Source: a gamma proteobacterium HIMB55
Lineage (GTDB): Bacteria; Pseudomonadota; Gammaproteobacteria; Pseudomonadales; Halieaceae
Length of the DNA stretch: 64,000 nucleotides
Assembly (NCBI GenBank): GCA_000227505.4
Contig: AGIF02000001.1
Span: forward strand, 206,035 to 270,034
Direction: 5' to 3'
Both the position numbers and the translations under genes were made by a program. The notes below the pieces were generated by a model. That model did no database searches. It was not told the DNA's origin and saw only the letters and a list, made by a program, of their open reading frames with translations. Shown here piece after piece: positions 8,418-64,000 of this stretch. Each line of letters starts with the position of its first letter. The stretch's first letter is position 1.

Positions 8418-8445
8418 AAAAGCCCGGCATTAGCCGGGCTTTTTG
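8418..8445. terminator. Intrinsic terminator between thiolase and pgi
   Basis: 8-bp perfect GC-rich stem AGCCCGGC / GCCGGGCT (8421-8428 with 8433-8440), ATTA loop, flanked by A's on the left and T's on the right. The flanks allow it to work in both directions for the convergent thiolase and pgi genes. Confidence 0.9.
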
Positions 8446-8558
8446 TATGTGATTCTTTTCTGCGCCCAAGTGCCTCAGTACCTAAGTACGCACGACTCCC
8501 CGAGTTACTTAGCGCCTGCCTTGGCTGGTTGGCGAGGTTTTGCGTAGCTCCTGAAGGC

Positions 8559-8576
8559 CATGCGCTCTAGCGCATG
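8559..8576. repeat. Hairpin 3' of pgi
   Basis: Perfect inverted repeat CATGCGCT-CT-AGCGCATG just beyond the pgi stop. It has no T tract in either direction, so it is at most an RNA-end stabiliser or part of a factor-dependent terminator. Confidence 0.45.
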
Positions 8577-8587
8577 AGTCCTGCATT

Positions 8588-10201
8588 TTAACGGCCGCTA
8601 TTGGCCTCTCGCCAAGCGGCGGCAAGCGTGGCGGTTGATGCGTCGAGCTCGTCGAGACCTTCGCCCGTTTCTAGCGCTCCGCGGATTTGCTTTCCAATCA
8701 CTTTGCCAAGCTCCACACCCCACTGGTCGAAGGCGTTTAGCCCCATCAGCACGGATAGGAAGTAGGTTTTGTGCTCGTAAGCGGCAACCAATGCACCCAG
8801 CGTCGCGGGTGTAACTGCATCCATAACAATGGTGCTGTGAGGGTGGTTTCCGGGCATTTCGAAATGAGGTGCGAGCTCGGGAGCGAGGCCTTTTGACGCC
8901 GCGAGTTCTTGTGACTCTTCGGCGGAGCGTCCAATCAAAAAGGCGCGGCTCTGTGCCAAGGCATTCGAGGCGAGCTTCCGGTGTGCGTCGAGGTCAACAT
9001 TCCCGTTGGTTAACGGAAAAATGATGTCAGCCGAAAACGCCCTGTTTCCCTGATGGAGCAGCTGATAGTAGGAGTGCTGACCGATGGTCCCCGCAGAGCC
9101 CCAGAGCACAGGTGCCGTGACGTCCGTTATGGACTCACCGTCGAGCGTCACCCGCTTACCATTACTCTCCATAGTCAGCTGCTGTAAAAAGTCAGCGAGG
9201 TACTCGAGGCGCTGAGAGTAGGGCAGGACGACATGCGTTTCCGTATTCAAGAAACGCGTGTTCCAGAGCTCGAGCATCGCCATCATCATCGGGAGGTTTT
9301 GGTCGGGCGCGGTTTCGCGTGTGTGCTCATCGAGCGCACGTGCGCCGTCGAGCATCTCAGAAAATGCTTCCCAGCCGTGCCCGAGCGCAATCACTAAGCC
9401 GATGGCTGACCACACTGAGTAGCGGCCGCCAACCCAGTCCCACATGGGGAAGCAGGCGTTTGCATCAATACCAAAGTCTGCCGCTGCGTCGAGATTGGTG
9501 GTGACTGCGAGTACGTGCTTGCCGATGTCCGCATCCGGTACACCGCCCTTAATTAGCCACGCTCGAGCGCGCTGCGCGTTGGTCAGGGTCTCTTCAGTGG
9601 TGAATGTTTTCGAGCAGATGATGAGCAGGGTGGTCGCGGGGTTAAGATCGCGAGTTACTACATCAAGATCGTGCGGATCAACGTTGGAAATAAAGTGGGT
9701 GCGAAGCCGCGGTGCCTCAGTATCGAGCGCGCGGCAGATCATTCGGGGACCGAGATCCGAGCCACCAATGCCGATGTTAATGACATCAGTGAATGGTTGC
9801 CCAGATGCGCTCGTGTGCGCGCCGCTGTGAATGCTCTCAACAGCAGATTTCATTCGAGAAAGCGTCTCGCTGACTTCGTTATATAAATCCGAACAATCGT
9901 TAGATGCTGTTCCTCGAAGCAGAGTATGTAGCGCCGCGCGTTGCTCGGTGATATTGACCTCGACACCCGTTACCAGCTGCTCGAAGGCTGCTGGTAACCC
10001 CGCATTGTCGGCCGCTTCAGTCAGCACGGAGAGTGCCGCGCGATCTATCCGCTGCTTGGATGCATCAAGGCTAAGTCCCGCAGCAGTTAACGTGAGGTCG
10101 CTTACGCGATTGGCGTCGCTGGAAAGCAGTTCTGCAATGGATACGTCGCTGAGGCGCGACGCCTCGGCTTTTAAGGTGTCGGCGTCACTGCTTGGCAGCA
10201 T
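8588..10201 (-). CDS. pgi: Glucose-6-phosphate isomerase
   Basis: Interconverts glucose-6-phosphate and fructose-6-phosphate in the cytoplasm. The 537-residue protein carries the PGI signatures NIGIGGSDLGPRM and SKTFTTEET, the active-site glutamate region MESNGKRV, the histidine region IGQHSYYQLLHQG, and the lysine in VELGKVIGKQI near the C-terminus. It begins 3 bases after the ispB stop on the same strand, so the two are probably co-transcribed, an unusual functional pairing. A hairpin and a bidirectional terminator follow it. Confidence 0.95.
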   Translation of the reverse strand: MLPSSDADTLKAEASRLSDVSIAELLSSDANRVSDLTLTAAGLSLDASKQRIDRAALSVLTEAADNAGLPAAFEQLVTGVEVNITEQRAALHTLLRGTASNDCSDLYNEVSETLSRMKSAVESIHSGAHTSASGQPFTDVINIGIGGSDLGPRMICRALDTEAPRLRTHFISNVDPHDLDVVTRDLNPATTLLIICSKTFTTEETLTNAQRARAWLIKGGVPDADIGKHVLAVTTNLDAAADFGIDANACFPMWDWVGGRYSVWSAIGLVIALGHGWEAFSEMLDGARALDEHTRETAPDQNLPMMMAMLELWNTRFLNTETHVVLPYSQRLEYLADFLQQLTMESNGKRVTLDGESITDVTAPVLWGSAGTIGQHSYYQLLHQGNRAFSADIIFPLTNGNVDLDAHRKLASNALAQSRAFLIGRSAEESQELAASKGLAPELAPHFEMPGNHPHSTIVMDAVTPATLGALVAAYEHKTYFLSVLMGLNAFDQWGVELGKVIGKQIRGALETGEGLDELDASTATLAAAWREANSGR

Positions 10202-48277: not shown

Positions 48278-48706
48278 TTGCTCATCGACAATGACGAAGA
48301 GTTAGCGGCCCTTTTCAAACGTGTTGAGACCATTGCGTTGGTGGGTGCGAGTCACAAGCCCGAGCGACCGAGCTATAAAGTTTTAGAGTTCCTCTTGGCG
48401 GAGGGTTTTCAAGTTACCCCCGTGAATCCGGGTCTTGCAGGTCAGCAGCTGCAGGGCCAAACGGTGGTTGCCTCGCTGTCTGATATTGATCACGCCATTG
48501 ATATGGTCGATGTGTTTCGTGACGGCAGTGCACTGCCCACTATATTGACCGAGACGTTAGCAATTGGTGCGCCCGTCCTGTGGACACAGCTCGCGGTGCG
48601 GCACGCAGATGCTGAACGAGAAGCGATCGAGCATGGTCTGGATTTGGTGGTCGATAAATGCCCGCTTCAAGAACTCCCTCGGCTGCGTAATAGAGGCCTA
48701 ATCTAA
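48278..48706 (+). CDS. CoA-binding domain protein (YccU-like)
   Basis: 142-residue Rossmann-type CoA-binding protein with ALVGASHKPERPSY and VTPVNPG near the N-terminus and the C-terminal VVDKCPLQE motif. Members of this family are uncharacterised; YccU is the E. coli representative. The start is TTG at 48278, five bases after the crotonase stop, so the two are probably co-translated. Confidence 0.85.
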   Translation: MLIDNDEELAALFKRVETIALVGASHKPERPSYKVLEFLLAEGFQVTPVNPGLAGQQLQGQTVVASLSDIDHAIDMVDVFRDGSALPTILTETLAIGAPVLWTQLAVRHADAEREAIEHGLDLVVDKCPLQELPRLRNRGLI

Positions 48707-49016
48707 CTAGTTCCCCCGCATCAGACTGTTTCCGGAGGTCTTTAAGCAACTCACCGTGCAGTCGATTTACGGGAGGTTGGTGTGGTGAGTAGATCTTCAA
48801 ATTCTATTATCGAAGACCGAAGACCGAAGACCGAAGACCGAAGACCGAAGACCGAAGACCGAAGACCGAAGACAGAAGACCGAAGACCCAAAATCCAAAT
48901 TTAGGATACAGAGAACATTCACCCAGTGGTTTTTGATGGGGTGTTGTTGGACGTTGGATCTGCGTTGCCTAACGCACTGCCCCATGGAAGAGGCAGCGCG
49001 TAAAGATTCCAGAACG
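48707..49016. other. 310-base gap with heptanucleotide repeat array
   Basis: Between the CoA-binding gene and the end of the MHS transporter gene. Apart from the tandem repeat at 48811-48887, I see no gene, terminator or RNA here. An open frame through the repeat encodes only low-complexity heptads. Confidence 0.7.
48811..48887. repeat. Eleven tandem copies of a 7-bp repeat (CGAAGAC)
   Basis: Eleven contiguous 7-bp units over 77 bases. Ten are exact CGAAGAC; the tenth unit is AGAAGAC. Strongly purine-biased on the + strand. Such arrays vary in length by slippage. Each unit contains GAAGAC. Confidence 0.95.
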
Positions 49017-50336
49017 TTACAGACTCGAGCCCTGGGTCTCCTCGAGCTGTGATAGGGACCACAGCGTCAGTATGGCTGCGATCATGATGTAAACCGAGAC
49101 GAAGAAAATACCAAAGTCTCGCCACAACAAAACCGCAATGGTGGGCGCCAATGCACCGCCGAGAATCGCACCGATCTGGTACCCCAGTGATGCGCCCGAG
49201 TATCGAACCTCAGTACTGAAAAGTTCCGTGAAGTAGGCGGCCTGCGGACCGTACTGCATACCGAGGAATAAAAGTCCCATGGTAATAGCGAAGCCGATCA
49301 GCATGGGGTTGCCGGTATCGATTAGTGGGAACAGCGCAAAGCCCCATGCGCCCGTTAGGATGGCTCCCCATTTATAGACACTCTTCCGCCCAATACGGTC
49401 GGATAGCCCCGAGAAGTAGAACTGAGTTGGCACCATGATCGCCGCCGCAACCAGCACTGCCATCAGCATCGTATCTCGCGAGAGATTGAGATTGGGCGAG
49501 TTGACGCCGTAGGCAATCACGAAAGCAATCAAGATGTAGAACGTTACCTGCACTGATAAGAAGGCGCCTGCAGCTAACATGATGCGCTTTGGATATTTGC
49601 GAATCGCCTCGACAACGGGTGACCGCTCAACAGCCTCTGCGGGCTTATCACTCGCAGCTTGGGCTTCGCTCAAGTTTTTGAATGCTTCCGTATCCTCGAT
49701 TTTCAGCTGGATATACATCGAAATACCGATGAGCACGATGCTGGCAATAAAGGGCAGACGCCATCCCCATTCCAAAAATGCCTCGTCGCTCATCGAGCTA
49801 CTGACGCCGATAAAGGCCAGATTAGCGAGGATCACACCCATCGGAGCGCCTGCTTGTGCATAGGCCCCGTACCAGCCCCGTTGATCGGACGGCGCACTCT
49901 CCGTGACCAGCAACATGGCACCACCCCATTGCCCGCCAATCGCCAAGCCTTGAATGAATCGCAACGCAACCAGTAGCAACGGTGCCGCAATGCCTATTGA
50001 TGTGTACGTGGGGAGGAAGCCGATCAGTGTGGTTGCGACGCCCATCATCATCAAAGCCACCACCAAGGTGCGCTTTCTTCCGATGCGGTCGCCAAAGTGA
50101 CCAAAAATGATGCCGCCGAGCGGGCGCGCTAAGAAACCAACCGCCAGGGTGCTAAAGCTGATGATGAGCAGCACCATCGTTGGTAGGTCTTGCGGAAAGA
50201 ACGCCTTTGGAAAAATAACGGCGGCTGCAGTGCCGTAGAGGAAGAAGTCGTACCACTCGATGCTCGTGCCTGCGAGTGACGTCATCGCCACGCGCCGCAT
50301 ATTTTGCTGCTGGTCTTGCCCAGTTGTATCGCTCAT
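49017..50336 (-). CDS. MFS transporter, metabolite:H+ symporter (MHS/ProP-like) family
   Basis: Twelve-span inner-membrane transporter of 439 residues. The MHS signatures are SIEWYDFFLYGTAAAVIFPK near the N-terminus, GHFGDRIGRKRTLV between TM2 and TM3 and LRFIQGLAIGGQWGGA. This subfamily includes ProP and other carboxylate/betaine transporters. Being divergent from the betB operon, it may import choline, betaine or a related osmolyte. This is context only. Confidence 0.9.
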   Translation of the reverse strand: MSDTTGQDQQQNMRRVAMTSLAGTSIEWYDFFLYGTAAAVIFPKAFFPQDLPTMVLLIISFSTLAVGFLARPLGGIIFGHFGDRIGRKRTLVVALMMMGVATTLIGFLPTYTSIGIAAPLLLVALRFIQGLAIGGQWGGAMLLVTESAPSDQRGWYGAYAQAGAPMGVILANLAFIGVSSSMSDEAFLEWGWRLPFIASIVLIGISMYIQLKIEDTEAFKNLSEAQAASDKPAEAVERSPVVEAIRKYPKRIMLAAGAFLSVQVTFYILIAFVIAYGVNSPNLNLSRDTMLMAVLVAAAIMVPTQFYFSGLSDRIGRKSVYKWGAILTGAWGFALFPLIDTGNPMLIGFAITMGLLFLGMQYGPQAAYFTELFSTEVRYSGASLGYQIGAILGGALAPTIAVLLWRDFGIFFVSVYIMIAAILTLWSLSQLEETQGSSL

Positions 50337-50600
50337 TGTCTTATCTCTTATTATTTCTTTTTGCCGCTGATTTATTTCCGCCCATCTCCGAGGCCATCAG
50401 CAGGATATTCAAGTGCCGCGGGACACTCCGTCCCCATCTAAACGAGTGTTCGACCTTGGGTCAACACCTATCTTGCTATGCCGTTTTTACGCGTTTCGAT
50501 TTCGCTTTGAACCACGTATCTGTGCAATCATTGCGCGCAAATCTAAAAACATCGAAAAGCATCAAAAACATTGCTGCTTTGATCTGGGCGAGAGAGAACT

Positions 50601-52106
50601 ATGACTAAGATGGTTGGCGGGGGACACTTCGATAAGTCGTCTACCCTTGAGCGTCAAAGGAGCTATATCAACGGCCGTTATGCAGATGCCGTGAATCCGC
50701 AGTTATTTCAAACGATCCATCCGGGAACAGGGCAAGCGATCTGTGATGTTGAAGTTGCCGATCAGGCGGTCGTAAATTCGGCCGTAGAAGCAGCAAAACA
50801 GGCGTTTGCCAGCTGGTCTCAAACCCCAGCCGCAGAGCGCGGTGCGATCTTGCGTCGCGCGGGCGAGATTCTCCGAGAACGCAATCAAGAGCTCGCTGAA
50901 CTGGAAACTTTGGATACAGGGAAAGCGATTCAAGAGACGAGCGTTATCGATGTAATCAGTGGCGTCGAAGTGCTCGAGTACTACGCAGGCATTGCACAGG
51001 CGCTGCATGGCTCGCACATTGATCTCCCACCCGAGGCCTTTGCCATCATGCGCCGTGAGCCCCTCGGTGTCTGTACTGCGATCGGTGCTTGGAATTACCC
51101 CATACAGATCGCGCTGTGGAAATCAGCTCCGGCGTTGGCCTGCGGAAATACCATGGTGTTCAAACCCTCCGAGGTAACACCACTGACGGCGTTGAAGCTG
51201 GCTGAAATTTACACCGAGGCAGGTTTGCCCGATGGCGTCTTTAACGTCGCGCTAGGAATGGGTGAGACGGGCGCTGCCCTGGTGCAGCATCCCGATGTGG
51301 CCAAAGTGTCGCTGACAGGGTCGGTACCAACAGGCAAGCGTGTTGCTGCAATGGCCGCCGAGTCATTGAAAAAGGTCACACTCGAGTTGGGCGGCAAGTC
51401 ACCTATTGTAGTGTGTGACGACTGCGATTTTGATAGCGCTGTTAACGCAGCACTGGCCGGTAATTTCTACTCTACGGGTCAGGTGTGCTCTAACGGCACT
51501 CGAGTGTTTGTCCACGAGGCTATTTTCGATCGCTTTGTTGCAGAGGTTGTTGAGCGAGCTCAAGCCATCAGTGTGGGCGACCCCTTCGATCCTGACATCC
51601 AAATGGGTCCCTTGGTGTCCGCGCCACAGCTGGAGAAGGTGGCGGCCTATCTCGATCAGGCGCGCTCCTCTGACACGGTCGATGTGTTGTGTGGTGGCGA
51701 GATTCTAAGCGCTGACGAGCTCAATGGTGGGTACTTTGTTTCACCTGCCGTGGTGGTCGCAACAACGGACGACCACTCGGTGGTTACAGAAGAGGTGTTT
51801 GGACCTCTTATGACGATTCTAAAGTTTAGTGACGAGTCTGATGTTGTCAGTCGAGCCAATGACACTCGATTGGGCCTTGCTGCTGCGGTATTCAGCCAGG
51901 ACTTTGCGCGTGCGCACCGTGTCGCCAACCAACTTCAAGCCGGCATTGTTTGGATTAACGAGTACAACATTACGCCCGCTGAAATCCCCTTCGGCGGTTA
52001 CAAAGAGTCGGGGATTGGTCGGGAGAACGGTCTACAAACCATCGAGCATTTCACGCAAAGCAAGACCATCTATGCCAATTTGGGCAGGGTTGAAAAAACG
52101 TATTGA
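50601..52106 (+). CDS. betB: Betaine aldehyde dehydrogenase
   Basis: NAD(P)-dependent oxidation of betaine aldehyde to glycine betaine. The 501 residues have the ALDH nucleotide site (IGAWNYPIQIALWKSAPAL), catalytic Glu in VTLELGGKSPI, catalytic Cys in TGQVCSNGTRVF and the C-terminal PFGGYKESGIGREN. BetB rather than generic ALDH is supported by the betA-type gene two positions downstream. No BetI repressor lies here. The next gene overlaps its stop. Confidence 0.92.
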   Translation: MTKMVGGGHFDKSSTLERQRSYINGRYADAVNPQLFQTIHPGTGQAICDVEVADQAVVNSAVEAAKQAFASWSQTPAAERGAILRRAGEILRERNQELAELETLDTGKAIQETSVIDVISGVEVLEYYAGIAQALHGSHIDLPPEAFAIMRREPLGVCTAIGAWNYPIQIALWKSAPALACGNTMVFKPSEVTPLTALKLAEIYTEAGLPDGVFNVALGMGETGAALVQHPDVAKVSLTGSVPTGKRVAAMAAESLKKVTLELGGKSPIVVCDDCDFDSAVNAALAGNFYSTGQVCSNGTRVFVHEAIFDRFVAEVVERAQAISVGDPFDPDIQMGPLVSAPQLEKVAAYLDQARSSDTVDVLCGGEILSADELNGGYFVSPAVVVATTDDHSVVTEEVFGPLMTILKFSDESDVVSRANDTRLGLAAAVFSQDFARAHRVANQLQAGIVWINEYNITPAEIPFGGYKESGIGRENGLQTIEHFTQSKTIYANLGRVEKTY

Positions 52107-52111
52107 TCGGT

Positions 52112-53155
52112 ATGAGACGGGTCATGAAGGTTGCTCGACAGTTGGCCTTGATCAGCGTCGGGTTGCTCCTAGTCGGGTTGTCCTTAATAGCAGCGACCTA
52201 CGCCGATTCCGACATGGTGCTCACGGACAACACGCTCGACGCGGCTCCAGAGAAAAAACCAAAGACGCTCTTTGTGATTGTCGACGGTATTCCGGCTGAC
52301 GTCATAGAGCGCGTGAATACCCCCGGCATTGATGCTGTTGTTGCCTCTGGTAGCTACCAGCGTGCTTATGTGGGTGGTGAGGTTGGATTACCGACTCAAA
52401 GTCCAACAGTATCTGCTGTGGGCTATATGAGTTTGCTGACCGGGACTTGGTCGAACAAGCACAACGTCCGTGCTAATCATGGTTTAGAACCAAACTACGC
52501 TTATTGGGACATTTTTCGCGTCGCAAAATACCAATCCGAACTTGTGACAACGGCAATTTTTTCGACTTGGACCGACAACCGAACCATTCTCTTGGGTGAT
52601 GGTTTACCCCAAGCGGGTGGCAACAAATTCGATTTTGTAGCTGATGGGTTTGAAGTTGATTCAATGTTTGCTCCTGATCTTGGCGACGTTGACCGGATAC
52701 AAAAGATCGACCTCCATATAACAAACGTGGCAGCTAAGAGTCTGGTTGAGGTGGCCCCCGATCTTTCATGGGTCTATCTGCAGCACACCGACGATATAGG
52801 CCATCGCGATGGTGATGGACCCTCGATGGATCGGGCTGTACGTTGGATTGATGCGAGGGTGCTGGAGCTTTACTCGGCGGTTAAGGCGAGAGAACAACGG
52901 GCCGCTGACGAAGACTGGTTGGTGATTGTTACCACAGACCACGGCAGAAAATCGTCGGATGGCAAGAGCCACGGTGGTCAATCCGAAAGAGAGCGCACCA
53001 TCTGGATCGCCAGCAATACTCCGCGTATGGTTTCCTCCATTGAGCGCGGTGTGGCTATCGTGGATATCTATCCGACGATTGTGGAGCACATGCGCTTTCA
53101 CCTGCCCGATGAGGTTGCCGCGCAACTCGAGGGGCAATCGCTGTTATCCAAGTGA
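52112..53155 (+). CDS. Alkaline phosphatase superfamily phosphodiesterase (NPP-like)
   Basis: Exported metal-dependent hydrolase, 347 residues from ATG 52112 (a TTG at 52103 overlapping the betB stop, and ATG 52124, are alternatives). An N-terminal signal segment (about residues 10-28) is followed by the metal/nucleophile sequence: FVIVDGIP, a Thr/Ser loop [33 protein letters not shown] and VTTDHGRKS. The pattern is that of nucleotide pyrophosphatase/phosphodiesterases, some of which act on glycerophosphocholine or phosphocholine esters. Lying between betB and betA suggests a choline-releasing role, which is inference only. Confidence 0.82.
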
Positions 53156-53165
53156 GGGGCTGAGG

Positions 53166-54875
53166 GTGTCGAAAGCGTTTGATTACATCATTGTAGGCGG
53201 TGGCTCAGCCGGCTGCGTGTTGGCGAATCGATTGTCTCAGGACTCATCTATTTCAGTCTTATTGTTAGAGGCTGGCGGCAATGGGCGCAGTCTCTTTGTG
53301 GATATGCCTACGGCCTTTGCCATACCCATGGCGTCAAAAGTCTTCAATTGGGGGTATTACAGCGAACCCGAACCTGCACTGGATGGACGCCCAATGGATG
53401 CGGCACGAGGCCGAGGTTTAGGTGGCTCCTCAGCGATCAACGGCATGGTATATGTGCGCGGTCATGCGCGTGATTTCGACGAGTGGGAGTCCTTGGGTGC
53501 GGAGGGTTGGAACTACCAGAACTGCCTTCCTTACTTTCAGCGCGCCGAGTCTTGGATGCATGGTGGTGATGACTATCGTGGCGGCGATGGTCCCGTGGGC
53601 ACCTCTAACGGCAACAATCGCAAGAACCCGCTATATCAGGCTTTTATCGACGCAGGCGAAGAGGCTGGCTACGGTCTGACAGACGATTACAACGGTTATC
53701 GGCAAGAAGGCTTCGGGCCCATGCACATGACGGTGAGGGGCGGCGTGCGCTCCTCGACACGCAGGTCTTATCTCGAGCCCATTAGGAAACGACCTAATCT
53801 TACTGTGATTACTGGAGCGGAAGTTGATCGTATCGAACTGGAGCAGGGTGTAGCCAAGCGCGTCATCTATAAAAAGGCCGGCGCCATAAAAACGGCATCA
53901 ACCCGACGCGAGGTGGTGCTGAGCGCGGGTAGTATCGGCTCACCCAGTATTCTTCAGCGCTCAGGCATTGGGCCTGCCAAGGTGCTCAAAGACGCAGGTG
54001 TTGAGGTAATCCATGAATTACCTGGTGTCGGTGAAAACTTGACTGATCACCTCGAGGTTTATTTTCAATACCGGTGCACACAACCCATCACCATCAATGG
54101 ACATTTGAACCCATGGGGCAAGTTCAAGATTGGCGTGCAGTGGGTGCTCTCAAAAACGGGTTTGGGTGCAAGCAACCATTTCGAATCCTGCGGCTTTATC
54201 CGCACTCGGGCGGGTGTTGAGTGGCCTGATATCCAATACCACTTCTTGCCCGGTGCGATTCGTTACGACGGCAATGCGGCATTTGATGGCCATGGCTTTC
54301 AGGTCCACGTTGGGCCGAATAAACCCGAGAGTCGGGGGCACGTGCGCATCCGAAGCGCCGATCCGGCGGACGCACCGGAAATTGTCTTCAATTATCTCGC
54401 GACCGAAAAAGATCGAGAGGATTGGCGCATTTGTCTTCGACTCACGCGCGAAATTTTGTGTCAGCCGGCGCTTGATAGCTTTAGGGGTGATGAGATCCAG
54501 CCCGCGGTTGATCTCTCTGACGACAATGCCGTTGATGCCTGGGTCAGGGCTAATGTCGAAACCGCCTACCATCCCTCGTGCAGTTGCCGCATGGGTGCCG
54601 CAGACGATGCTATGGCAGTTGTCGACCCTGAGTGTCGAGTTAGGGGTGTCTCGGACCTTCGCGTGGTCGACTCATCGATATTTCCCAGTATCCCCAACGG
54701 TAATCTCAATGCGCCTACCATCATGCTGGCCGAGCGAGGGGCCGCATTGATTCGGGGTGAGAAGATGGAGGTGTCCGACGCACCCACGTGGATTGCCGAG
54801 GACTGGGAAAACACTCAACGTACAGGGGGGCCTGTCAGGCCTATGGATGATGACCTGCTAAGGTCTTCACTATGA
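53166..54875 (+). CDS. betA: Choline dehydrogenase (GMC oxidoreductase)
   Basis: FAD-dependent, membrane-associated oxidation of choline to betaine aldehyde. The start is GTG 53166 ([19 protein letters not shown]) with GAGGGG six bases upstream, giving 569 residues; the frame is open further upstream through the phosphodiesterase gene but is not used. GMC motifs: the dinucleotide site [43 protein letters not shown] and C-terminal [11 protein letters not shown] with the catalytic His region, then [12 protein letters not shown]. The order betB-phosphodiesterase-betA-BCCT-like is unusual. Its stop overlaps the following gene by four bases (ATGA). Confidence 0.92.
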
Positions 54876-55996
54876 TGACGTTGCTGTCTATTGCCATGGT
54901 GGTTGCTCTTATGTCCGCAGCCTCTGTGGTGTTGCGATGGCCAACCTATCAATGTCTCGGCGATACGCCCTTACCAACGCTGTCATTCTTGGCCATTCTT
55001 TTTACCTCGGGTCTCGATGTGGGACTCATCATGTTCCCGCTTATCGATTTTCAGACTTATGCCAGCGAGACTGACTACAGTTTTGCGAGTCCGTTGGTTA
55101 TTGAATTTGGGTTCTGGGGAGGTCTAGTTTGGGGGTTTTATTTCCTGACAACGCTGTATTTTTGTGCGATCGAACCCCGGCTCAAACTGTTTGAGCTCGC
55201 GCCCATACGCGCAATCCATAATCTGGTGGTCATAGCGACCTGCGCTTTCACGGCATATCTCTTCCTGGCTTACCTACCGAGCTACATCGAGGGTATCAGT
55301 CCAATGGCAACCTACATTCTGGTAGCCGTGGTGATCGTCCTTGCGGTGATTTCGAGCACGCGACTCGCTGTGCTGAGGGTGTTGAGCCTCAGTTCTACGG
55401 GCTTGTTTCTTGTTCTGATTGCGGCTGCGTGGCTAGCGTCGGGTCTCGGTATTAGCGGCCTTCTTGGGACGATGAGCGGCCTAAGTGCCTACGTCACGAA
55501 CCTCGATCGCTTCATTCTGCCAATAAACGATTATCACGGGTTCTACCTGAGCTGGTGGTTCGCCTGGTCGATTATGATCGGACAATTTGTCGCCCGTTTT
55601 GTGAATGGCATGGCCGCATGGAAGCTGTTGATTGCGATATTGATTGTGCCGTCCATCCCTATTGCGCTCTGGTTCTCTGTGCTCTTTTCCTATTTTGCTG
55701 GCGACATCCCTATCGGTGACACAATCACGCTGTTGATGATTGTGGTTGGCATCTTGTTCGTTATTAACAGTTTGGACTCGTTAACCCGACTGTATTCACA
55801 GAACCTGGGTCTTACGGTGGAAGCACTGGGTCGGTCCCGCTACATACTGACCCATGCGGGGCTGCTCGCCGGTCTCGTCGTGTTGTATCAGTTCACGCCA
55901 CTCAAAATCGAGTGGATCGGCATGATCGTGATTGGTCTTTACGTCGCTATTTATGGCCTGATGTTTGTCAGGCGTGACGCGCTAACCAGCAACTAA
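54872..55996 (+). CDS. Truncated, divergent BCCT-like membrane protein
   Basis: 374-residue, roughly ten-span membrane protein overlapping betA by four bases. It is a distant BCCT (betaine/choline/carnitine transporter) homologue. [15 protein letters not shown] (46-60) corresponds to the canonical [32 protein letters not shown] (79-95) corresponds to the HWGLVAW span. [19 protein letters not shown] (224-242) corresponds to the FYWAWWLAYGPFIG motif. It begins about 47 residues later than the full-length BCCT at 62278 and lacks its glycine-betaine-binding GxGxGxM motif. It may be an altered transporter, channel or sensor. The assignment comes from manual alignment. Confidence 0.65.
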
Positions 55997-56030
55997 CCTC
56001 ACACGCTTCTCAGTCATGCGTGCCGATAGT

Positions 56031-57404
56031 TCAGTGTATGCGCGCACCTTGGCGTTTGAGCTCGCCTTGTAGTGCTGATACCGACAGGTCGTCAAAGCGT
56101 TCGTTGCGCTTTACCGATAAGGCGGCTGCGGTGCCGGCAGCCTGACCCGTCACTGCACAGCACATCATATTTCGAGTGGCGGCGTGGCTGACACGATCAC
56201 CTCCGGTAATCCGACCTGCGCAGATGAGGTTCTCGACATTTCTCGGAATCAAGGTCCGATAGGGCAGGTGGAAGTAGCGACCGGTGGTCGGCAGGATGAG
56301 GATGCCGTAGCCATCGATGAACTCGGGGAAGATGCCTACCGAATCATCAAATCGTCCCTGCTCGCGCACATCGTTTTCAGTCATGTTGTAGGCAGCATTA
56401 ATCTTTCGGGTATCGCGAATACCCAATGTCATGCCGAAGTTTCGTAGCTTGGCGTTTTCGCAGCCGGGTTGGAATGCCTGTAGCGCCTTCACGGCCATCA
56501 TCGCCTGCTTACGACCTTCCATCTCGCCACGGGTGAGATCCGCGGGGTCGGTACCGTCATATCCGAGTAGGTGGACGAGGTTCATGTAGGTGAGGTCGCC
56601 CGTATCGTAAAGCGCGCCCCAGGTGCCTGAAATGGTGTCGAGGTTGGGTGGGATCAATCCTTCGGCCCGCGCTCGCTCGAAGGGCTTTCGCAGGAAGGGC
56701 GAGAACATCTCATCTTCCTTGCCCGTGGTCTCGATCGTCCATTGCCCGTAGGCCCAGTCAGCATAGGTGTGAGGCGCGGCTTTGACGTGCTCGATGAACT
56801 TTGTCTTGTCGACACCCGAGAGCGAGAACATGACCGAGGCGCCAATCATGTCCTGCTTGGCTTGCTTGACGGTTGGCGCTCCTGCCCTGTGCGCAACATC
56901 TGCATCCCCCGTCGCATCAATGACACGCTCCGCTAGGATTGCTTCCCGCCCGGCCTTGCTCTCGACAATGACCCCTGTGATTCGATTACCGTCCATGATG
57001 GGAGCAACAAACATCCTGTGAAGCATCGGCGTGATGCCCGCCTCGAGGACGAGGTCATCGGCCACGGCTTTGAACGCCTCACCATCGATGGCATGGCTCT
57101 GGGATTGAGGTTCAGCCACCGAGGCACCCGCTGCCTTGGCGCGCTCTTCAAATTCAATGCCAATCCCTTCGCTATCGACGGTCTGCTCGTGTCGATACCA
57201 GGCAAAACCTTCAACACCCACGGCGGTGATGTTGCCGCCAAAACAGCCATATCTTTCCAGCAAAGCGACGCTGACACCCGTGCGAGCCGCGGCAATCGCA
57301 GCCGCAAGTCCAGCGGGTCCACTACCAATGACCAAGACATCAGTGGTGTGTATTACCGCTAGCTCTCTGGCGGGTTCCGTAATCATTGAAGGTTGTTCCC
57401 GCAT
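56031..57404 (-). CDS. FAD-dependent oxidoreductase
   Basis: 457-residue flavoprotein of the FAD_oxidored family. The N-terminal dinucleotide-binding fold is DVLVIGSGPAGLAAAIAAAR with E at the end of beta2 (ALLERYGCFGGNI). A second FAD contact is VIDATGDADVAHRAG, and the C-terminal LICAGRITGGDRVSHAATR is characteristic. An exported or membrane location is not indicated. The substrate is unknown; the family includes dehydrogenases of diverse small molecules. It is divergent from the downstream TonB receptor. Confidence 0.88.
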   Translation of the reverse strand: MREQPSMITEPARELAVIHTTDVLVIGSGPAGLAAAIAAARTGVSVALLERYGCFGGNITAVGVEGFAWYRHEQTVDSEGIGIEFEERAKAAGASVAEPQSQSHAIDGEAFKAVADDLVLEAGITPMLHRMFVAPIMDGNRITGVIVESKAGREAILAERVIDATGDADVAHRAGAPTVKQAKQDMIGASVMFSLSGVDKTKFIEHVKAAPHTYADWAYGQWTIETTGKEDEMFSPFLRKPFERARAEGLIPPNLDTISGTWGALYDTGDLTYMNLVHLLGYDGTDPADLTRGEMEGRKQAMMAVKALQAFQPGCENAKLRNFGMTLGIRDTRKINAAYNMTENDVREQGRFDDSVGIFPEFIDGYGILILPTTGRYFHLPYRTLIPRNVENLICAGRITGGDRVSHAATRNMMCCAVTGQAAGTAAALSVKRNERFDDLSVSALQGELKRQGARIH

Positions 57405-57645
57405 TTTTCCCCCGGGCCTGCTCTATTCGTATGGCTTATGTTTAAGCGTTTTTTTGTTTGATGTTCGTTGCAATTGTGGGTATACCACGTAAAGCACTTT
57501 GAGTAATGCTGTCGATGTTTTGTCATAAAAAGCCGTTTAAATTCGGCAGGGGGCGCAGAACGACGGTTAACTCAAATGCGATGCCCCTGAAGTGGTAAGC
57601 AGTACAACAACGAAAACGATGCGAAGTCAGAGAGGGAACACTAAA

Positions 57646-60087
57646 GTGAAAATCAAAGACCCATCCCAAAAGACCTCATTTTTTAGGCGGCCTTTAGCGC
57701 TTGCAGTTTCAACTGCCTGCGGTTTGGTCGGTGCAACTTCGGTTGTCATGCCTAACGAGGCGCAAGCTCAAATCGAAGAGGTGCTGGTAACAGCTACCCG
57801 TCGAGCGGAGAGCGTACAGGACATCCCGATGAGCGTTAGCGTTCTCGGTGAGACCCAACTAGAAGATCTCAACATCAATGACATGGAAGACTACGTCATG
57901 ATGTTACCCAACGTGAGCTTTATCACCTTGGGCCCGAGTTCGGGTGATATCTACATTCGTGGTATTTCAAGTGGTGGTGAGAGCCAGCTTGGCGCGAACC
58001 CTAGTGTGGCCGTTTATCTCGATGATCAGCCGGTAACTGCTGTAGGTCAGTATCTGAACCCTCACATTTATGACGTGAACCGTATCGAGGTGCTGGCAGG
58101 CCCACAGGGAACGACCTATGGTGCCAACGCACAGTCAGGTGCCATCCGCATCATCACGAATGCACCGAGCACAGAGGGCTTTGAGGCCGGTTTCAATATC
58201 AGTGTTGGCCAGGCGAGAAGTGCAGATATTAGTCACTTAACCGAAGGTTTTGTGAACATCCCACTGAGCGACTCTGTGGCGCTGCGCGTGTCTGCTTACA
58301 ACAAAGAGGACGGCGGTTACATCGATAATGTGGCCGGAACTCACACGTTCCGTCACGGGTTTATCCGAGCCGGCTTGATGGGCGCAGGCCTACCCGAGGA
58401 CCATCCAATGGTTCAGGCGGCGGCCGACCTTACAGTCGATAACTCGGATGTGGTTGAGAAAAACTTCAACGACGCGACGACGCGCGGTGGACGTGCGGCG
58501 CTTGCGATTGATCTCAACGACAGCTGGACGCTGACTGCAACAGCGATGATGCAGGACGTCGAGACCAACGGCTTGTGGGATCACGACCCTAGTGTGGGTG
58601 ACCTAAAAGTGATGCGTCTTCTCCCTGATTACGGTGATGATGAGTGGACACAATTCTCATTAACGCTATCGGGTGAAGTAGCGGGCGGCACGCTGACAGC
58701 AAACTTTGCTGATCTTGAGCGTGACTTAACGAGCTATGCAGATTACTCGCTCTACAGTGATTACTACGTCTCCTACGGATATGTTCAGCCTTACTACGTT
58801 TGTTACGTGAGTGGCACAGGCGTTTGTGGTGATCCACGTACGCAGTACACCAACGTCACAAACATCGAACGCCAGAACATGGAGCTTCGCTACACATCTG
58901 ATCCAACGGAGCGTTTCCGCTATATGGCGGGTATCTATCGTGTCGAGTCTGATACTGCCTCCGATAACGATTGGCGCGTCTTGGGCTTGAGCGAAGTCCC
59001 TCAGATGGCTGTCGATGCTCCAAACATTTACTGGACAACAGATTTCGTGCGGTCGTACGAGGAGACAGCCTATTTTGGTGAGGTCTCCTACGACATCAGC
59101 GATGATCTAACCGTGGCTGCAAGTGCACGTCGCTTTGACTACGAAGGTGGTCTCGACGGGTTCTCGGGCACCGTTTGGTGGCCATGCGGAGGCTTTGGTC
59201 CTCAGGGTGATCGCCCTGAGAGTAACTACGGTGCTGACTGTGCCCCCGAGGCTCGGGTGACTGAAGCGCAAGATACTGTGTTCCGTGCGTCGCTTGAGTA
59301 TCAGATGAACGAAGAGTGGATGCTCTACACAGCCTGGGGTGAGGGTTATCGTCCCGGTGGTTTGAACCGGTTCTGCCAAACGCGTGCGATTGACGGTTTG
59401 GGTAACCAGGGTTCATCCAACATCGGCTGTGAGTTCCTGCCTGACTTCCTGACCTCGACTGAGGTGGGTTTCAAGGCAACGCTCAACGGTGGCCGAACGC
59501 GCATCAATGGTGCGGCTTTCTGGCAGGACTGGGATGACTTCCAGTTCTCTCGTCTAGATACGTCCGTGTCGCCACTCACGCTGACCTACAACGTGGGTAA
59601 TGCGGAAAGTAATGGTGTTGAGTTTGATTTCGTAACCATGGTTACAGACAACCTCACGCTGACCGGTGCGGCGGCTTATGTTGATGCGACGTTGGCTTCG
59701 GACTACCGTCGAAACGAGACATCACCAGAGCCTGACGCAGCCTCTGGAACTGACTTACCGCGCGTGCCCAGCGTGAAGTGGAACATTGCAGGACGCTACA
59801 CCTTCGGCGACGACTACTTCTTGCAAGCGGCTTACATCTACACAGGTAAGTCTTACAACACCTTGTTTGATGGCGGTACGATTCAAACACAGCGTAAGAC
59901 ACAGCCAAGCTACAAGGTCATGAACGCTTCAGTTGGTATGGAACGCGAAACATGGACTGCGGAGCTTTATGTGCAGAACCTGACCGACGAGCGCGGCACC
60001 GTATGGCAAAACGCGGTGACATGGGACGAGCGCGTCACCATTAACCAGCCACGCACACTGGGTGTAAGTTTCCGCAGAAACTTCTAA
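57646..60087 (+). CDS. TonB-dependent receptor
   Basis: Outer-membrane receptor. Signal peptide with cleavage near AQAQ-IEE; a TonB box-like EEVLVTATRRAESVQDIPMS; the plug domain with YIRGISSGG and RIEVLAGPQGTTYGANAQSG; and a barrel ending in FRRNF. From GTG 57646 (AGAGGG nine bases upstream) the protein has 813 residues; a GTG at 57592 would add 18 residues but has no ribosome binding site. The plug and barrel motifs match the FecA/iron-complex-to-carbohydrate receptor class of sphingomonads and marine gammaproteobacteria. Followed by a strong terminator and a TPR-sulfotransferase gene. The substrate is unknown. Confidence 0.9.
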   Translation: MKIKDPSQKTSFFRRPLALAVSTACGLVGATSVVMPNEAQAQIEEVLVTATRRAESVQDIPMSVSVLGETQLEDLNINDMEDYVMMLPNVSFITLGPSSGDIYIRGISSGGESQLGANPSVAVYLDDQPVTAVGQYLNPHIYDVNRIEVLAGPQGTTYGANAQSGAIRIITNAPSTEGFEAGFNISVGQARSADISHLTEGFVNIPLSDSVALRVSAYNKEDGGYIDNVAGTHTFRHGFIRAGLMGAGLPEDHPMVQAAADLTVDNSDVVEKNFNDATTRGGRAALAIDLNDSWTLTATAMMQDVETNGLWDHDPSVGDLKVMRLLPDYGDDEWTQFSLTLSGEVAGGTLTANFADLERDLTSYADYSLYSDYYVSYGYVQPYYVCYVSGTGVCGDPRTQYTNVTNIERQNMELRYTSDPTERFRYMAGIYRVESDTASDNDWRVLGLSEVPQMAVDAPNIYWTTDFVRSYEETAYFGEVSYDISDDLTVAASARRFDYEGGLDGFSGTVWWPCGGFGPQGDRPESNYGADCAPEARVTEAQDTVFRASLEYQMNEEWMLYTAWGEGYRPGGLNRFCQTRAIDGLGNQGSSNIGCEFLPDFLTSTEVGFKATLNGGRTRINGAAFWQDWDDFQFSRLDTSVSPLTLTYNVGNAESNGVEFDFVTMVTDNLTLTGAAAYVDATLASDYRRNETSPEPDAASGTDLPRVPSVKWNIAGRYTFGDDYFLQAAYIYTGKSYNTLFDGGTIQTQRKTQPSYKVMNASVGMERETWTAELYVQNLTDERGTVWQNAVTWDERVTINQPRTLGVSFRRNF

Positions 60088-60104
60088 GACCCATGTGATG
60101 ACTG

Positions 60105-60128
60105 AAGGCGCCTGCGGGCGCCTTTTTT
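60105..60128 (+). terminator. Intrinsic terminator after the second TonB receptor
   Basis: Stem AAGGCGCC / GGCGCCTT (60105-60112 with 60117-60124), TGCG loop, followed by T's to 60128. Confidence 0.92.
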
Positions 60129-60209
60129 GTTTTAAAACGGCACTTGCCAACGCAGTTCTAGACCCACATGCTTGGGGTTGGGGACAGGAATAATCGCGGT
60201 ATCAATAAT

Positions 60210-62180
60210 ATGCAGCCAATCGATGCGCTCTATGAGCAGGCGAAGGCCTCCTTGCAACAGGGGAACCCTGAGCTAGCCGTTACTTTGTGCGAGCAGGCGC
60301 TCGATCAGGCGCCCAATGATTCACGATTTACCCTGTTTTACGGCGTGGGGCTTCGCCGCTCCGGCAGGATTGAGCAAGCTGAACCGCTCTTACGCGGGAT
60401 TGTCGCTGAGCTCCCGCAACTCGCTCTGGCCCAGCACGAGCTGGGTTTGGCGTTGAGCGCACAGAATCGAATTACTGAAGCCATGAACTGTTTAGAGGCT
60501 GCACTCGCAAGTCAGCCTAATTCAGCGGCTATCTGGCGAGACCTTTACCACTTGCGCGCCGCCGAGGGCGATGATGTGGGGGCAGCGGACGCTTATCGCC
60601 GATCGCTCAACAGTCGAGAGCTTGACCCGATTCTTAAGAAAGCGCTCGACCTCGTGGAGGGTGGACGTTTGGGTATCGCTGAGGGTGTTTGCCGCGAATA
60701 TCTAAAACGCCGGCCTCATGACGTGGACGCCATTCGTTTGCTCGCAGAGATTGGTATTACGCTTGGGGTGGTTGGACAGGCGATCCTACTTCTTGAGCGT
60801 TGCCTAGAGTTGGCCCCGGATTTTGTGATCGCCCGAGCCAATTACGCGACAGCGCTTGCTCGCCATCAGCGTTTCGACGATGCGCTTGAACAGACCGGTA
60901 TTTTAAAAGCCAAGGATCCGAACGCGGTTTCTCACATGGTTCAGCATGCGGCTATCTTGTCGATGGCTGGCCTGTACGACCTTGCTCACCCAGAGTTTGC
61001 GCAGATCGTTCGTCGTGTACCCGATAATGCCCGCATATTGATCAGTTACGGCCACTCGTTGCGCTACGGTGGTAAGGGCGAGGAAGCGACAAAAATATAC
61101 CAACGTGCCATCAAGGCAGATCCCGGCGCTGGTGAAGCCTACTGGGCGTTGGCTAATTTGAAGACATTTAAGTTTGACGATGCCCTCATTGCAACCATGC
61201 AGGAGCGGCATCAATCCCTCGATCGGATGGGGCCTGATCGGTTCCATCTCGCCTTCGCTATTGGTAAGGCACTCGAAGATCGGGGTGCACATGACGAGTC
61301 GTTTGCGGCCTACGCGGATGGCAATTCGATAAAACGGCAATTCAGTTCTTACACTGTTGAGCGAACGACCCGGCAGGCAGATGAGATGATTGAGTATTGT
61401 CCGTCTGAGGTCTTCACGCGTGAGGGGCATCCGTCGGCTGAGCCGATTTTTATTCTGGGCTTGCCCAGAGCCGGGTCGACACTGCTTGAGCAGATTCTTG
61501 CGAGCCACTCATTGGTCGAGGGTACGGCTGAGTTGCCTTATATCAGTCAGATTGCGAGTGAAATTGGGGGCACGCGCAAGAAAGATGAGCAAGCCCAGTA
61601 TCCGTCAAACCTGATCAATTTGACGGCTGAAGAAAGAGTGGCGTTCGGGCAAAGATACCTCGACAGCGCGGCGAAATACCGAACTGATAAGGCGCACTTT
61701 ATCGACAAGATGCCCAATAACTGGATGCACATTGGTTTGATCAAGGCCATTTTGCCGAATGCGACCATTATTGACGCTCGTCGGCACCCAATGGCGGCGT
61801 GCTTTGCCAATTTCAAACAGTTGTTTGCGCGAGGTCAGGAATTTACCTACGGACTAGAAGAGATCGGCCATTACTACGCGGATTACATGCGACTCATGGC
61901 GCACTGGCATGCGGTGCTTCCAGATGATGTGATGACGGTACAGTACGAGTCGGTAGTCGAAGATCTAGACACTCAGGTTCGAGCCTTGCTAGAGCACTGC
62001 AAGTTGCCGTTCGAGGAGCAGTGTCTTCGTTATTATGAGAAAGACCGGGCGGTTCGTACCGCCAGTTCGGAACAGGTACGACAGCCCATTTACCGAGACG
62101 CTTTGTCACTTTGGCAGCGCTATGAATCGCATTTAGACCCGCTCAAAGCGGTGCTGGATGAAAGAGGGGTTGCCTACTAG
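60210..62180 (+). CDS. TPR-sulfotransferase fusion protein
   Basis: 656 residues from ATG 60210 (an ATG at 60168 would add 14). The N-terminal 380 residues carry tandem tetratricopeptide repeats (A-L-E-Q-A-L-D-Q-AP, YRRSL, AYWALANLKTF). A C-terminal sulfotransferase domain begins near residue 411, with the PAPS 5'-phosphosulfate loop LGLPRAGSTLLEQIL and a later 3'-phosphate region (IDARRHPMAACFANFKQL). Such TPR-sulfotransferases often sit beside TonB receptors in marine and sphingomonad genomes; the acceptor substrate is unknown. No strong ribosome binding site was found for either start. Confidence 0.88.
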   Translation: MQPIDALYEQAKASLQQGNPELAVTLCEQALDQAPNDSRFTLFYGVGLRRSGRIEQAEPLLRGIVAELPQLALAQHELGLALSAQNRITEAMNCLEAALASQPNSAAIWRDLYHLRAAEGDDVGAADAYRRSLNSRELDPILKKALDLVEGGRLGIAEGVCREYLKRRPHDVDAIRLLAEIGITLGVVGQAILLLERCLELAPDFVIARANYATALARHQRFDDALEQTGILKAKDPNAVSHMVQHAAILSMAGLYDLAHPEFAQIVRRVPDNARILISYGHSLRYGGKGEEATKIYQRAIKADPGAGEAYWALANLKTFKFDDALIATMQERHQSLDRMGPDRFHLAFAIGKALEDRGAHDESFAAYADGNSIKRQFSSYTVERTTRQADEMIEYCPSEVFTREGHPSAEPIFILGLPRAGSTLLEQILASHSLVEGTAELPYISQIASEIGGTRKKDEQAQYPSNLINLTAEERVAFGQRYLDSAAKYRTDKAHFIDKMPNNWMHIGLIKAILPNATIIDARRHPMAACFANFKQLFARGQEFTYGLEEIGHYYADYMRLMAHWHAVLPDDVMTVQYESVVEDLDTQVRALLEHCKLPFEEQCLRYYEKDRAVRTASSEQVRQPIYRDALSLWQRYESHLDPLKAVLDERGVAY

Positions 62181-62277
62181 CCCATGGCTCCAGCCGCCCC
62201 TGACGTAGGGGCATGAAACCTTACGGGAAAATAGGCTACCCTGTTACCACACCAAAACAATAACTCTGGGATTCTTT

Positions 62278-63795
62278 ATGACGCAGGCTGTAGATCGCGT
62301 TAACTTCGTTTTAACCCTTTCGGTCATGTTGGCCATGGCCATACCGCTGCTTCTCTTCCCAGAAGCCAGTGCGCTCGCACTCCAAACGGCCTACAACTTC
62401 CTCGCTACCGAGCTGGGTTGGCTGTACATTCTCACGGCGATATCGGCGTTTGGTGCCGTTGTTTTTCTTGCCTTTGGACCTTACGGTCGCGTGCGGCTAG
62501 GGGACGATAAACCTGAATTCAGTACAACTAGCTGGATCGCGATGCTGTTTGCCGCCGGTATTGGTGCCGGCATGATGTATTGGGCATCCATTGAATGGGC
62601 GTTCTACGTCGATACCCCCCCCTTTGGGGCTGCGCCGCGGTCGCCCGAAGCCTACGTTTGGGCGTCGTCCTTTGGTCTGCATCACTGGGGACTGGTTGCC
62701 TGGTCGTTTTATTGCCTGCCGACGCTCGCCATTGCCTACCCCTTTTACGCGCGCGGTGTGTCTAAGCTCAAGTACAGCATCTCAGCACCGCATTTTATTA
62801 AGGGCGGTGAGGGATCGATTGGCGCAAGGTTAATGGATAGCTTCTTCATGATCGCTTTGGTCGGTGGGATTGGGAGCTCGCTTGGATTCTCGACACCCAT
62901 GATTGCCGCGTTGATCTCAAGGCTGACGGGCATTCCCGTCAGTTTTGGTATGGAGTTAGTGGTGGTTGCGGTGTGTGTTGCAATGTTTGGCACCAGCGTT
63001 TGGCTTGGACTTAAGCGCGGTATTAAGCGCCTCAGTGATTTTAATATGGTCCTGGCCTTTGTCATTTTGGTCTGCATTCTCCTCGCCAGCGATACCGTCT
63101 TCCTATTGCGAATGGCGATCAACTCGATCGGTCACACGCTGCAAAACACCGTAGCGATGATGTTTTGGACTGACCCCATAAACAACACGGGATTCATCGA
63201 AGATTGGACGATCTTTTATTGGGCGTGGTGGCTTGCCTACGGTCCCTTCATTGGTATTTTCGTAACCCGTATATCGAAAGGCCGATCGATACGCGAGGTG
63301 GTACTCGGCATGTTGGGAATGGGTTCTATGGGCGTGTGGCTGTTCTACCTCATTATCGGTAACCACAGTCTCGGACTGCAGGTGAGTGGTGAGGTGGATG
63401 TTCTGGGTATCATGGCTGCGTCCGATGGTAATCAAGCCATTATCGCGGGTCTTGATGTTTTGCCGGGTGCATCGCTGTTCATCATCGCCTTTATTTTCCT
63501 AACCAGTATTTTCACGGCAACGACTTACGATAGTGCGTCCTACGTTCTGTCAGCAAGCGCGACTAAATCGCTCAAGCCCTCTGAAGATCCGGCGCGGTGG
63601 CATCGTGTTTTCTGGGCGGTTGCGATTGCGATTTTGCCCATTGGATTGATGTATGCCGGTGGTCTCAAAACGGCTCAAACGGTCGTCCTCGTGGTATCGC
63701 TGCCACTGGTCTTTACCTTCTGGCTATCCGGTATCTCCCTCCTTAAATCACTTAAGGAAGATCATGGTGATACAACGGACAACTCAGCCTCTTAA
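62278..63795 (+). CDS. BCCT family betaine/carnitine/choline transporter
   Basis: Twelve-span inner-membrane transporter of 505 residues with the canonical motifs FAAGIGAGMMYWASIEWAF (91-109), HHWGLVAWSFYCLPTLA and FYWAWWLAYGPFIGIFVTR (about 312-330). BCCT carriers take up quaternary ammonium or sulfonium osmolytes coupled to Na+ or H+. This is the full-length counterpart of the divergent homologue in the betBA operon. It starts 97 bases after the sulfotransferase. The stop is at 63795, and a tiny open frame overlaps the 3' end but is rejected. Confidence 0.94.
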   Translation: MTQAVDRVNFVLTLSVMLAMAIPLLLFPEASALALQTAYNFLATELGWLYILTAISAFGAVVFLAFGPYGRVRLGDDKPEFSTTSWIAMLFAAGIGAGMMYWASIEWAFYVDTPPFGAAPRSPEAYVWASSFGLHHWGLVAWSFYCLPTLAIAYPFYARGVSKLKYSISAPHFIKGGEGSIGARLMDSFFMIALVGGIGSSLGFSTPMIAALISRLTGIPVSFGMELVVVAVCVAMFGTSVWLGLKRGIKRLSDFNMVLAFVILVCILLASDTVFLLRMAINSIGHTLQNTVAMMFWTDPINNTGFIEDWTIFYWAWWLAYGPFIGIFVTRISKGRSIREVVLGMLGMGSMGVWLFYLIIGNHSLGLQVSGEVDVLGIMAASDGNQAIIAGLDVLPGASLFIIAFIFLTSIFTATTYDSASYVLSASATKSLKPSEDPARWHRVFWAVAIAILPIGLMYAGGLKTAQTVVLVVSLPLVFTFWLSGISLLKSLKEDHGDTTDNSAS

Positions 63796-63846
63796 CGTTG
63801 CGGACTCCCAACTCACCGCAGAGCATTTTATGGTTCAGGTGGTAGC

Positions 63847-64000
63847 GTGAGCGATCAGCCAGTTGCCATCGTTATGGGCGGTGCATCTGGCATTGGACTG
63901 GCCCTGTTGCTGACGATCGTGCTAGCCGGTTGTGACCCCGCGAATAAGTCGCCTGTTGTTGAAACGGCAAATGCTCAGTACTCGGGGCTCGAATTGACTG
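63847..64000 (+). CDS. Partial gene with SDR-like start running into a lipoprotein-like signal
   Basis: GTG at 63847 opens a frame to the window end. The first 19 residues (VAIVMGGASGIGLA) look like the NAD-binding start of a short-chain dehydrogenase. They then run straight into LLLTIVLAGCDPANKS, which looks like a lipoprotein signal peptide with lipobox LAGC. Either a real lipoprotein starts at ATG 63874, or two gene starts are fused by deletion or assembly error. Only 51 codons are visible, so no function is assigned. Confidence 0.4.
   Translation, partial: MSDQPVAIVMGGASGIGLALLLTIVLAGCDPANKSPVVETANAQYSGLELT

Follow-up and report, generated by a model that had tools for sequence, protein, structure and literature searches.

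A shortened BCCT homologue in the bet operon of gammaproteobacterium HIMB55 is a predicted importer of choline or a similar cation

To characterize a choline-utilization locus, we analysed a 64,000-nt stretch of the genome of the gamma proteobacterium HIMB55 (assembly GCA_000227505.4, contig AGIF02000001.1, positions 206,035 to 270,034 of the forward strand; the whole stretch is hereafter called the window). The open reading frame at 54872-55996 (+ strand, ATG start, 374 aa), fourth gene of a bet operon, encodes a short BCCT-like transporter, designated here sBCCT; its relatives in other genomes are referred to as members of the sBCCT family. The reading we favour, and regard as probable though some way from assured, is that sBCCT is a secondary transporter forming a distinct, shortened BCCT subfamily, predicted to supply the co-encoded BetA/BetB pathway by importing choline or a closely similar quaternary ammonium cation. 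It is based on the homology to BCCTs and the predicted 5+5 core, on signs of purifying selection, on the invariance of the aromatic box, and on the linkage to betA and betI, which extends over at least two classes of Pseudomonadota. As to the substrate, we infer choline uptake from genomic context and site residues only.

Homology to BCCT transporters and predicted fold

A first-pass annotation of the window, made by eye, had pointed to a likeness between this reading frame and the canonical BCCT encoded at 62278. BLASTP aligns the two proteins over 315 columns (E 2e-6, 23% identity), and hhalign, comparing 53 sBCCT sequences with an alignment of canonical BCCTs, returned a probability of 97% over 282 columns; the likeness is therefore not due to chance. 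The same annotation had proposed a profile check. sBCCT scores 29.7 bits against Pfam PF02028, above the cut-off of 27, and matches no other Pfam family. PF02028 matches each of the 53 aligned members at E <= 0.001. Scores are weak throughout the family, roughly 25-45 bits, and several relatives lie slightly below 27 bits in genome searches. Since single-sequence HMMER covers well only residues 146-272, a fold search was needed for the remainder of the protein.

The AlphaFold2 model of sBCCT (pLDDT 90.2, pTM 0.87) has an N-terminal helix (residues 2-22) followed by a ten-helix core with the BetP-like 5+5 inverted repeat of the LeuT type. All 50 Foldseek matches listed are BCCT structures, with E values down to 8.5e-9. 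In VIA-align, Z scores were 34.6 to BetP (361 of 374 residues aligned, about 15% identity), 34.1 to TmaT (371 of 374 residues), 30.9 to BetT and about 27 to CaiT, with a clear gap separating these BCCTs from CHT1 (20.6) and from LeuT-type transporters (17-19). The comparison with BetP had also been suggested in the annotation, and its outcome places BCCTs at the top of all structural matches listed. In BetP, the matched stretch begins with residue 99. Counting helices, transmembrane helix (TM) 1 is the only one missing from the model, the rest of which is compact rather than cut. Thus, the description of sBCCT as N-terminally shortened holds for a single helix; the loss is small and leaves the transporter core complete.

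The models built for full-length BCCTs do not recognize the protein. Its score is 11.7 bits with the canonical 12-helix model TIGR00842 (cut-off 407.55) and 10.5 bits with the BetT model NF007399 (cut-off 695); the predicted structure falls short of twelve helices through the absence of TM1. In TM8, sBCCT reads FYLSWW where canonical proteins have a signature around [FY]WxWW (PROSITE PS01303). Altogether, the sequence comparisons and the model indicate that sBCCT is a distant BCCT homologue with a complete core.

Predicted substrate and ion sites

Site residues were compared between 81 sBCCTs and 36 canonical BCCTs. The latter comprised 16 proteins from the fetched loci and the window, one more from the window's own genome and 19 from drawn genomes; ten of these 36 proteins are closely orthologous to the BCCT of the window. 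A second sBCCT set (n=25) combined the window's protein with 24 relatives at 37-59% identity and took in S. meliloti, two Pseudoalteromonas and 15 evenly drawn genomes.

The aromatic residues of the site are those of a BCCT. In TM4, W82, W87 and Y90 (W82...W87..Y90; 55115-55141, + strand) occur in 81/81 sBCCTs, the canonical counts being 35/36, 36/36 and 34/36, respectively. In the TM8 segment W228-W229-F-A-W232 (55553-55567, + strand), the three tryptophans are likewise invariant in all 81 proteins; at these positions, canonical BCCTs have W in 36/36, W in 35/36, and a mixture of W (23), Y (11) and F (2). These identities indicate that the aromatic cation box for the trimethylammonium group is retained in sBCCT. 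The first-pass annotation had described the betaine-binding motif as lost, noting the replacement of GIGAGMMYW by GLDVGLIMF and of HWG by FWG. Both replacements are seen in the BLASTP alignment. The claim of loss applies to the TM3 hinge that contacts the substrate carboxylate, and to one position of the Na2 site; it does not apply to the invariant box.

In the TM3 hinge, G47-L-D49-V-G51 (55010-55024, + strand), Asp49 is present in 81/81 sBCCTs and Gly in 36/36 canonical proteins, so that the glycine-rich GxGxG of the latter is GxDxG in every sBCCT. In the Na2/Na1 region of TM10, N299-S300-L-D302-S303 (55766-55780, + strand), Asn299 (81/81) replaces a Thr found in 36/36 canonical BCCTs, presumably T467 of BetP, while S300, D302 and S303 are kept. 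Three further positions distinguish the two groups: Leu226 (81/81) stands where all 36 canonical proteins have Trp, Ile234 where all have Pro, and Phe81 where all have His. In the second set, Asp49, Asn299, Leu226, Ile234 and the full aromatic box are invariant, and Phe81 is found in 23 of 25 proteins. T123/T127 of TM5 were considered as the Na1-site threonines and rejected, since the helix can be aligned in either of two registers that lie seven residues apart.

Constraint is concentrated in the same parts of the protein. The alignment of 53 sBCCT sequences contains 94 invariant columns, found at 16 of 22 positions in TM8, 14 of 30 in TM3, 14 of 31 in TM4 and 14 of 30 in TM10, and scarce in the periphery (TM6 1/18, TM11 1/21, N-terminal helix 0/21). 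Conservation is thus centred on the helices that form substrate and ion sites in BCCTs. Values of dN/dS (NG86) against five near relatives were 0.05-0.09 in the five of eight comparisons that could be computed; the three without a value probably reflect synonymous saturation. The gene is under purifying selection. In a genome of the same genus, the homologue (G010:C12:59365-60478) is split in two, contains a pair of in-frame TGA codons and is a probable pseudogene or assembly error.

We envisage a three-step route in which an exported phosphodiesterase would free the choline head group, sBCCT would import choline, and BetA and BetB would oxidise it to glycine betaine. Asp49 would lie in the unwound TM3 hinge, at the site where zwitterion transporters hold the substrate carboxylate through backbone amides. 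A fixed negative charge here would work against glycine betaine, carnitine and dimethylsulfoniopropionate (DMSP), and to the advantage of a cation that lacks a carboxylate, such as choline. Asp49 might, in addition, be the coupling residue (H+ or Na+).

Comparison with characterized family members places these features in context. BetP of Corynebacterium glutamicum, the best structural match, shares the Trp/Tyr box with sBCCT and differs in the hinge (GxGxG rather than GxDxG) and in the TM10 Thr that has become Asn299. The TmaT trimethylamine transporter (8zxp) has the fold and the aromatic box in common with sBCCT, and the same is true of the fold and TM8 box of BetT, solved as 9vbp/9vbn ("high-affinity choline transport protein") and 8ybq/8ybr. 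Unlike BetT, sBCCT lacks TM1, and at 374 aa it falls about 120 aa short of the smallest canonical BCCT in the comparison (497 aa). The choline BetT 9vbp has a hinge Asp too, within GIGID, two residues later than Asp49 in GLDVG, in an alignment that is gapless but low-scoring by itself; the hinge of 8ybq (GISIT) has none, unlike that of sBCCT. BetP-G153D (3p03), choline-bound according to the title of the structure, carries its Asp at the same later position as 9vbp. Asp49 of sBCCT would thus be a second placement of the hinge Asp for the same purpose. SERT and DAT belong to a different family, having only the LeuT fold in common with sBCCT; by mapping of Na2 residues, Asp49 would correspond to LeuT Gly24 and to SERT Asp98, the amine-binding Asp. 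It is conceivable, at somewhat short of an even chance in our estimation, that choline specificity evolved independently a second time among BCCTs, in sBCCT, a minimal protein of 11 helices. Its selectivity for cations would derive from an Asp at the middle hinge position (GxDxG), where 9vbp and BetP-G153D have theirs at the last one (GxGxD), and would represent a convergent solution to amine binding inside another LeuT-fold family.

Mutational data are available for the DMSP transporter DddT, which shares the fold and the aromatic box with sBCCT. In DddT, the DMSP carboxylate is reported to be bound by the backbone NH groups of two hinge residues, A99 and G101, the A99P and G101D changes abolish activity, and Na2 is formed by C95 and V98 (TM3) together with F415, T418 and T419 (TM10) (PMC13270143). 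Motif order would equate A99 with Asp49, G101 with Gly51, T418 with Asn299, T419 with Ser300, D421 with Asp302 and S422 with Ser303. DddT T418A, altered at the Asn299 position, still transports (PMC13270143).

Genomic neighbourhood and alternative explanations

Relatives of sBCCT were detected in at least 584 genome stretches (tblastn, E <= 1e-3), the best 80 of which, at 54-91% identity, were inspected. Among 397 evenly drawn Pseudomonadota genomes, 16 match sBCCT (E <= 1e-30), the window's own included; in near relatives and members of the order the count is 26/58, again including its own. Neighbourhoods could be parsed for 96 of 98 loci, a set that leans to close relatives of the window; clusters of neighbouring genes were named from representatives (one each for the carnitine-dehydrogenase-like and GDPD clusters). 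The synteny with betA that the annotation had proposed to look for was found. In 77/96 loci, BetA is encoded no more than 5 kb from sBCCT; in 66 it is adjacent on the same strand, either before or after sBCCT, and in 56 the two are separated by at most 60 nt. It is by far the commonest neighbour among the gene types counted, the others within 5 kb being betB-type aldehyde dehydrogenase (ALDH; 29 loci), phosphodiesterase (23), BetI (11), a carnitine-dehydrogenase-like protein (9) and GDPD (7). All 49 BetA neighbours scanned match the choline dehydrogenase equivalog TIGR01810 (E <= 1e-219, about its cut-off). In the evenly drawn sample, with 14 parsed loci, BetA is within 5 kb in nine and BetI in seven. 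The pairing with betA is seen in Halieaceae, SAR92, SAR86, Nitrincola, Pseudoalteromonas and others. Two Pseudoalteromonas plasmids (L119, L120) have the order betI-betB-betA-sBCCT-TorF porin, the last gene, for a TorF-family putative porin, being a possible outer-membrane route for choline. In adjoining betA, sBCCT resembles the betT gene of Ruegeria pomeroyi, which lies beside betA and is reportedly needed for rapid choline uptake (PMC4744692).

For a reverse comparison, one BetI locus per genus was taken from 60 genera, excluding copies beside sBCCT. Fifty-four of the 60 hold betA, and 12 of those 54 also hold a canonical BCCT, versus none of the nine evenly drawn sBCCT loci with betA, a small sample. 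All 15 evenly drawn loci are free of a canonical BCCT within about 9 kb of sBCCT; in the larger set one is found within 5 kb in 5/96 loci. In one of these five, L066, the canonical BCCT gene (6388-8004) overlaps the start of sBCCT (8001-9122) and betA follows directly, an apparent case of two transporter types within one operon. These data are compatible with, and do not prove, the idea that sBCCT fills the transporter place in the bet operon.

Several observations weigh against choline import by sBCCT, or at least complicate it. None of the canonical BCCTs compared has this hinge, and Asn299 replaces a Na2 threonine. Gly at the Asp49 position is typical but not universal, since the solved BetT 8ybq, outside the 36-member control set, has Ser there. 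The coupling ion cannot be read from the sequence because the alignments leave it ambiguous how TM5 is registered against the Na1 threonines of BetP. Not every Trp of the box is essential, since DddT W321A, changed at the W229 position, raised transport (PMC13270143). BetA is missing within 5 kb in 19/96 loci, a group that includes one locus cut by a contig end (L010) and some with BetA about 7 kb away. On pSymB of Sinorhizobium meliloti Ak57, a nodule isolate, sBCCT (L118, 5938-7104) sits beside an Lrp/AsnC regulator with no annotated bet neighbours; from this copy and the 19 loci it follows that the substrate may differ or be broader. Finally, a canonical BCCT is also encoded in 35/35 and 30/30 genomes with sBCCT (the two sets may overlap).

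The chief alternative, to which we give a minor but appreciable share of our confidence, is a working BCCT-type transporter with another quaternary or tertiary ammonium substrate, for example glycine betaine, carnitine, gamma-butyrobetaine, glycerophosphocholine or a methylamine, or else a choline/betaine exchanger. The carnitine-dehydrogenase-like and GDPD genes counted above, as well as the S. meliloti copy, speak for a different substrate, and exchange is within reach of the BCCT fold, CaiT being described as an antiporter (PMC13270143). The predominance of BetA among the neighbours argues in the opposite direction, as does the presence near several copies of BetI, whose NCBIfam model is named as a choline-binding repressor; moreover, Asp49 should repel carboxylates. 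Association with other proteins is an improbable explanation: sBCCT would not transport on its own but serve as partner subunit, either to a canonical BCCT in a mixed oligomer or to the BetA dehydrogenase. A canonical BCCT is present in 16/16 genomes with sBCCT as opposed to 152/381 without it (Fisher P 7e-7, uncorrected for kinship) as well as in the 35 and 30 genomes just mentioned, and the overlaps of sBCCT with the canonical gene in L066 and with betA in the window also fit a subunit. Nonetheless, the core and the residues of the substrate site are intact and show stronger conservation than the peripheral helices, and canonical BCCT genes are rarely close by (5/96 loci, and none of the 15 evenly drawn ones). 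Co-occurrence is expected for osmolyte users, shared ecology being a simpler cause than a subunit role; since every sBCCT genome checked has a canonical BCCT, co-occurrence cannot separate a transporter from a subunit.

That sBCCT is a transporter-like choline sensor (transceptor), as the annotation had speculated, is very unlikely. The altered hinge and the altered Na2 position, both fixed differences from canonical BCCTs, could be taken in its favour; nothing found points specifically to a sensor, the 374 aa hold no extra Pfam domain, and the sole recurrent regulator among the named clusters is BetI, which binds choline itself going by the name of its NCBIfam model. We give still less credence to a decaying, non-functional BCCT fragment: shortness and the broken G010 relative would fit, and are contradicted by the low dN/dS, the 94 invariant columns in 53 sequences and a spread beyond one class. 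An operon of the polyethylene-glycol type, consisting of a GMC dehydrogenase and a permease, was rejected, as the scores of BetA and of the betaine-aldehyde dehydrogenase with their models favour choline; no paper combining the terms of this idea was found in the open-licence literature.

Operon layout and implications

The position of sBCCT as fourth gene of a bet operon agrees with the first-pass annotation. A co-directional, closely spaced run contains betB and betA with a phosphodiesterase gene between them. The first gene (50601-52106, + strand) encodes a betB-like betaine-aldehyde dehydrogenase (ALDH) of 501 aa, scoring 733 bits with NCBIfam PRK13252 (cut-off 593) and 662 bits with TIGR01804, slightly below the 668.6 cut-off. 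The second (52112-53155, + strand) encodes a phosphodiesterase of the alkaline-phosphatase superfamily (PF01663, 55.3 bits) with an N-terminus that, by eye, resembles a signal peptide; in-frame ATG 52112 is probably its start rather than the listed TTG 52103. A search of solved structures for a close relative found none, the only match being marginal (7mw8, E 0.007). This enzyme may act on a phosphodiester to liberate choline, and is a candidate for one step in the use of marine phospholipid head groups. The third gene, betA, encodes choline dehydrogenase, a GMC oxidoreductase (53166-54875, + strand; TIGR01810 761 bits, cut-off 732, for the translation taken from 53133); its start is presumably GTG 53166, picked by reading the sequence. 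The betA TGA stop at 54873-54875 overlaps the sBCCT start by four bases (ATGA), as the annotation had stated.

A search of the HIMB55 genome at E <= 1e-40 did not find a BetI repressor gene. The Rfam scan of 48500-64000 gave no match at the gathering threshold, and promoter and terminator scans of 50200-56200 returned no more hits than in shuffled sequences. The canonical full-length BCCT of the window (62278-63795, + strand, 505 aa, PF02028 458.7 bits), used as comparison protein throughout, lies 6.3 kb downstream of sBCCT; near relatives, such as L004-L010 and L012, have a downstream copy too. Between the bet operon and this gene, at 57592-62180, are a TonB-dependent receptor and, after it, a TPR-sulfotransferase protein, a pair that recurs near sBCCT in Halieaceae in either order. 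In an array at 48811-48888, the 7-base unit CGAAGAC occurs 11 times (97% matching).

The suggestion that sBCCT could be a new transporter class stands in so far as it forms a distinct BCCT subfamily that stays with choline genes in many lineages; its kind is already known as BCCT, and public annotation labels the relatives "BCCT family transporter". It stands apart in falling far below the cut-offs of the TIGR00842 and BetT models, in the absence of TM1 and in a hinge unseen in the canonical set. Among the titles and abstract openings listed from the open-licence literature, none described a short or 11-helix BCCT or an sBCCT operon. A Tara Oceans survey estimated choline use in the ocean with a BetT-type profile at an e-80 threshold (PMC10132767). 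Because even the general BCCT profile matches sBCCT weakly, a strict BetT profile would probably miss it, and the family was probably left uncounted in that survey. Through the fixed hinge Asp, the choice of BCCTs between cation and zwitterion can be tested cleanly at a single residue, and the loss of TM1 offers a test of whether this helix is needed in transport or only in regulation and assembly.

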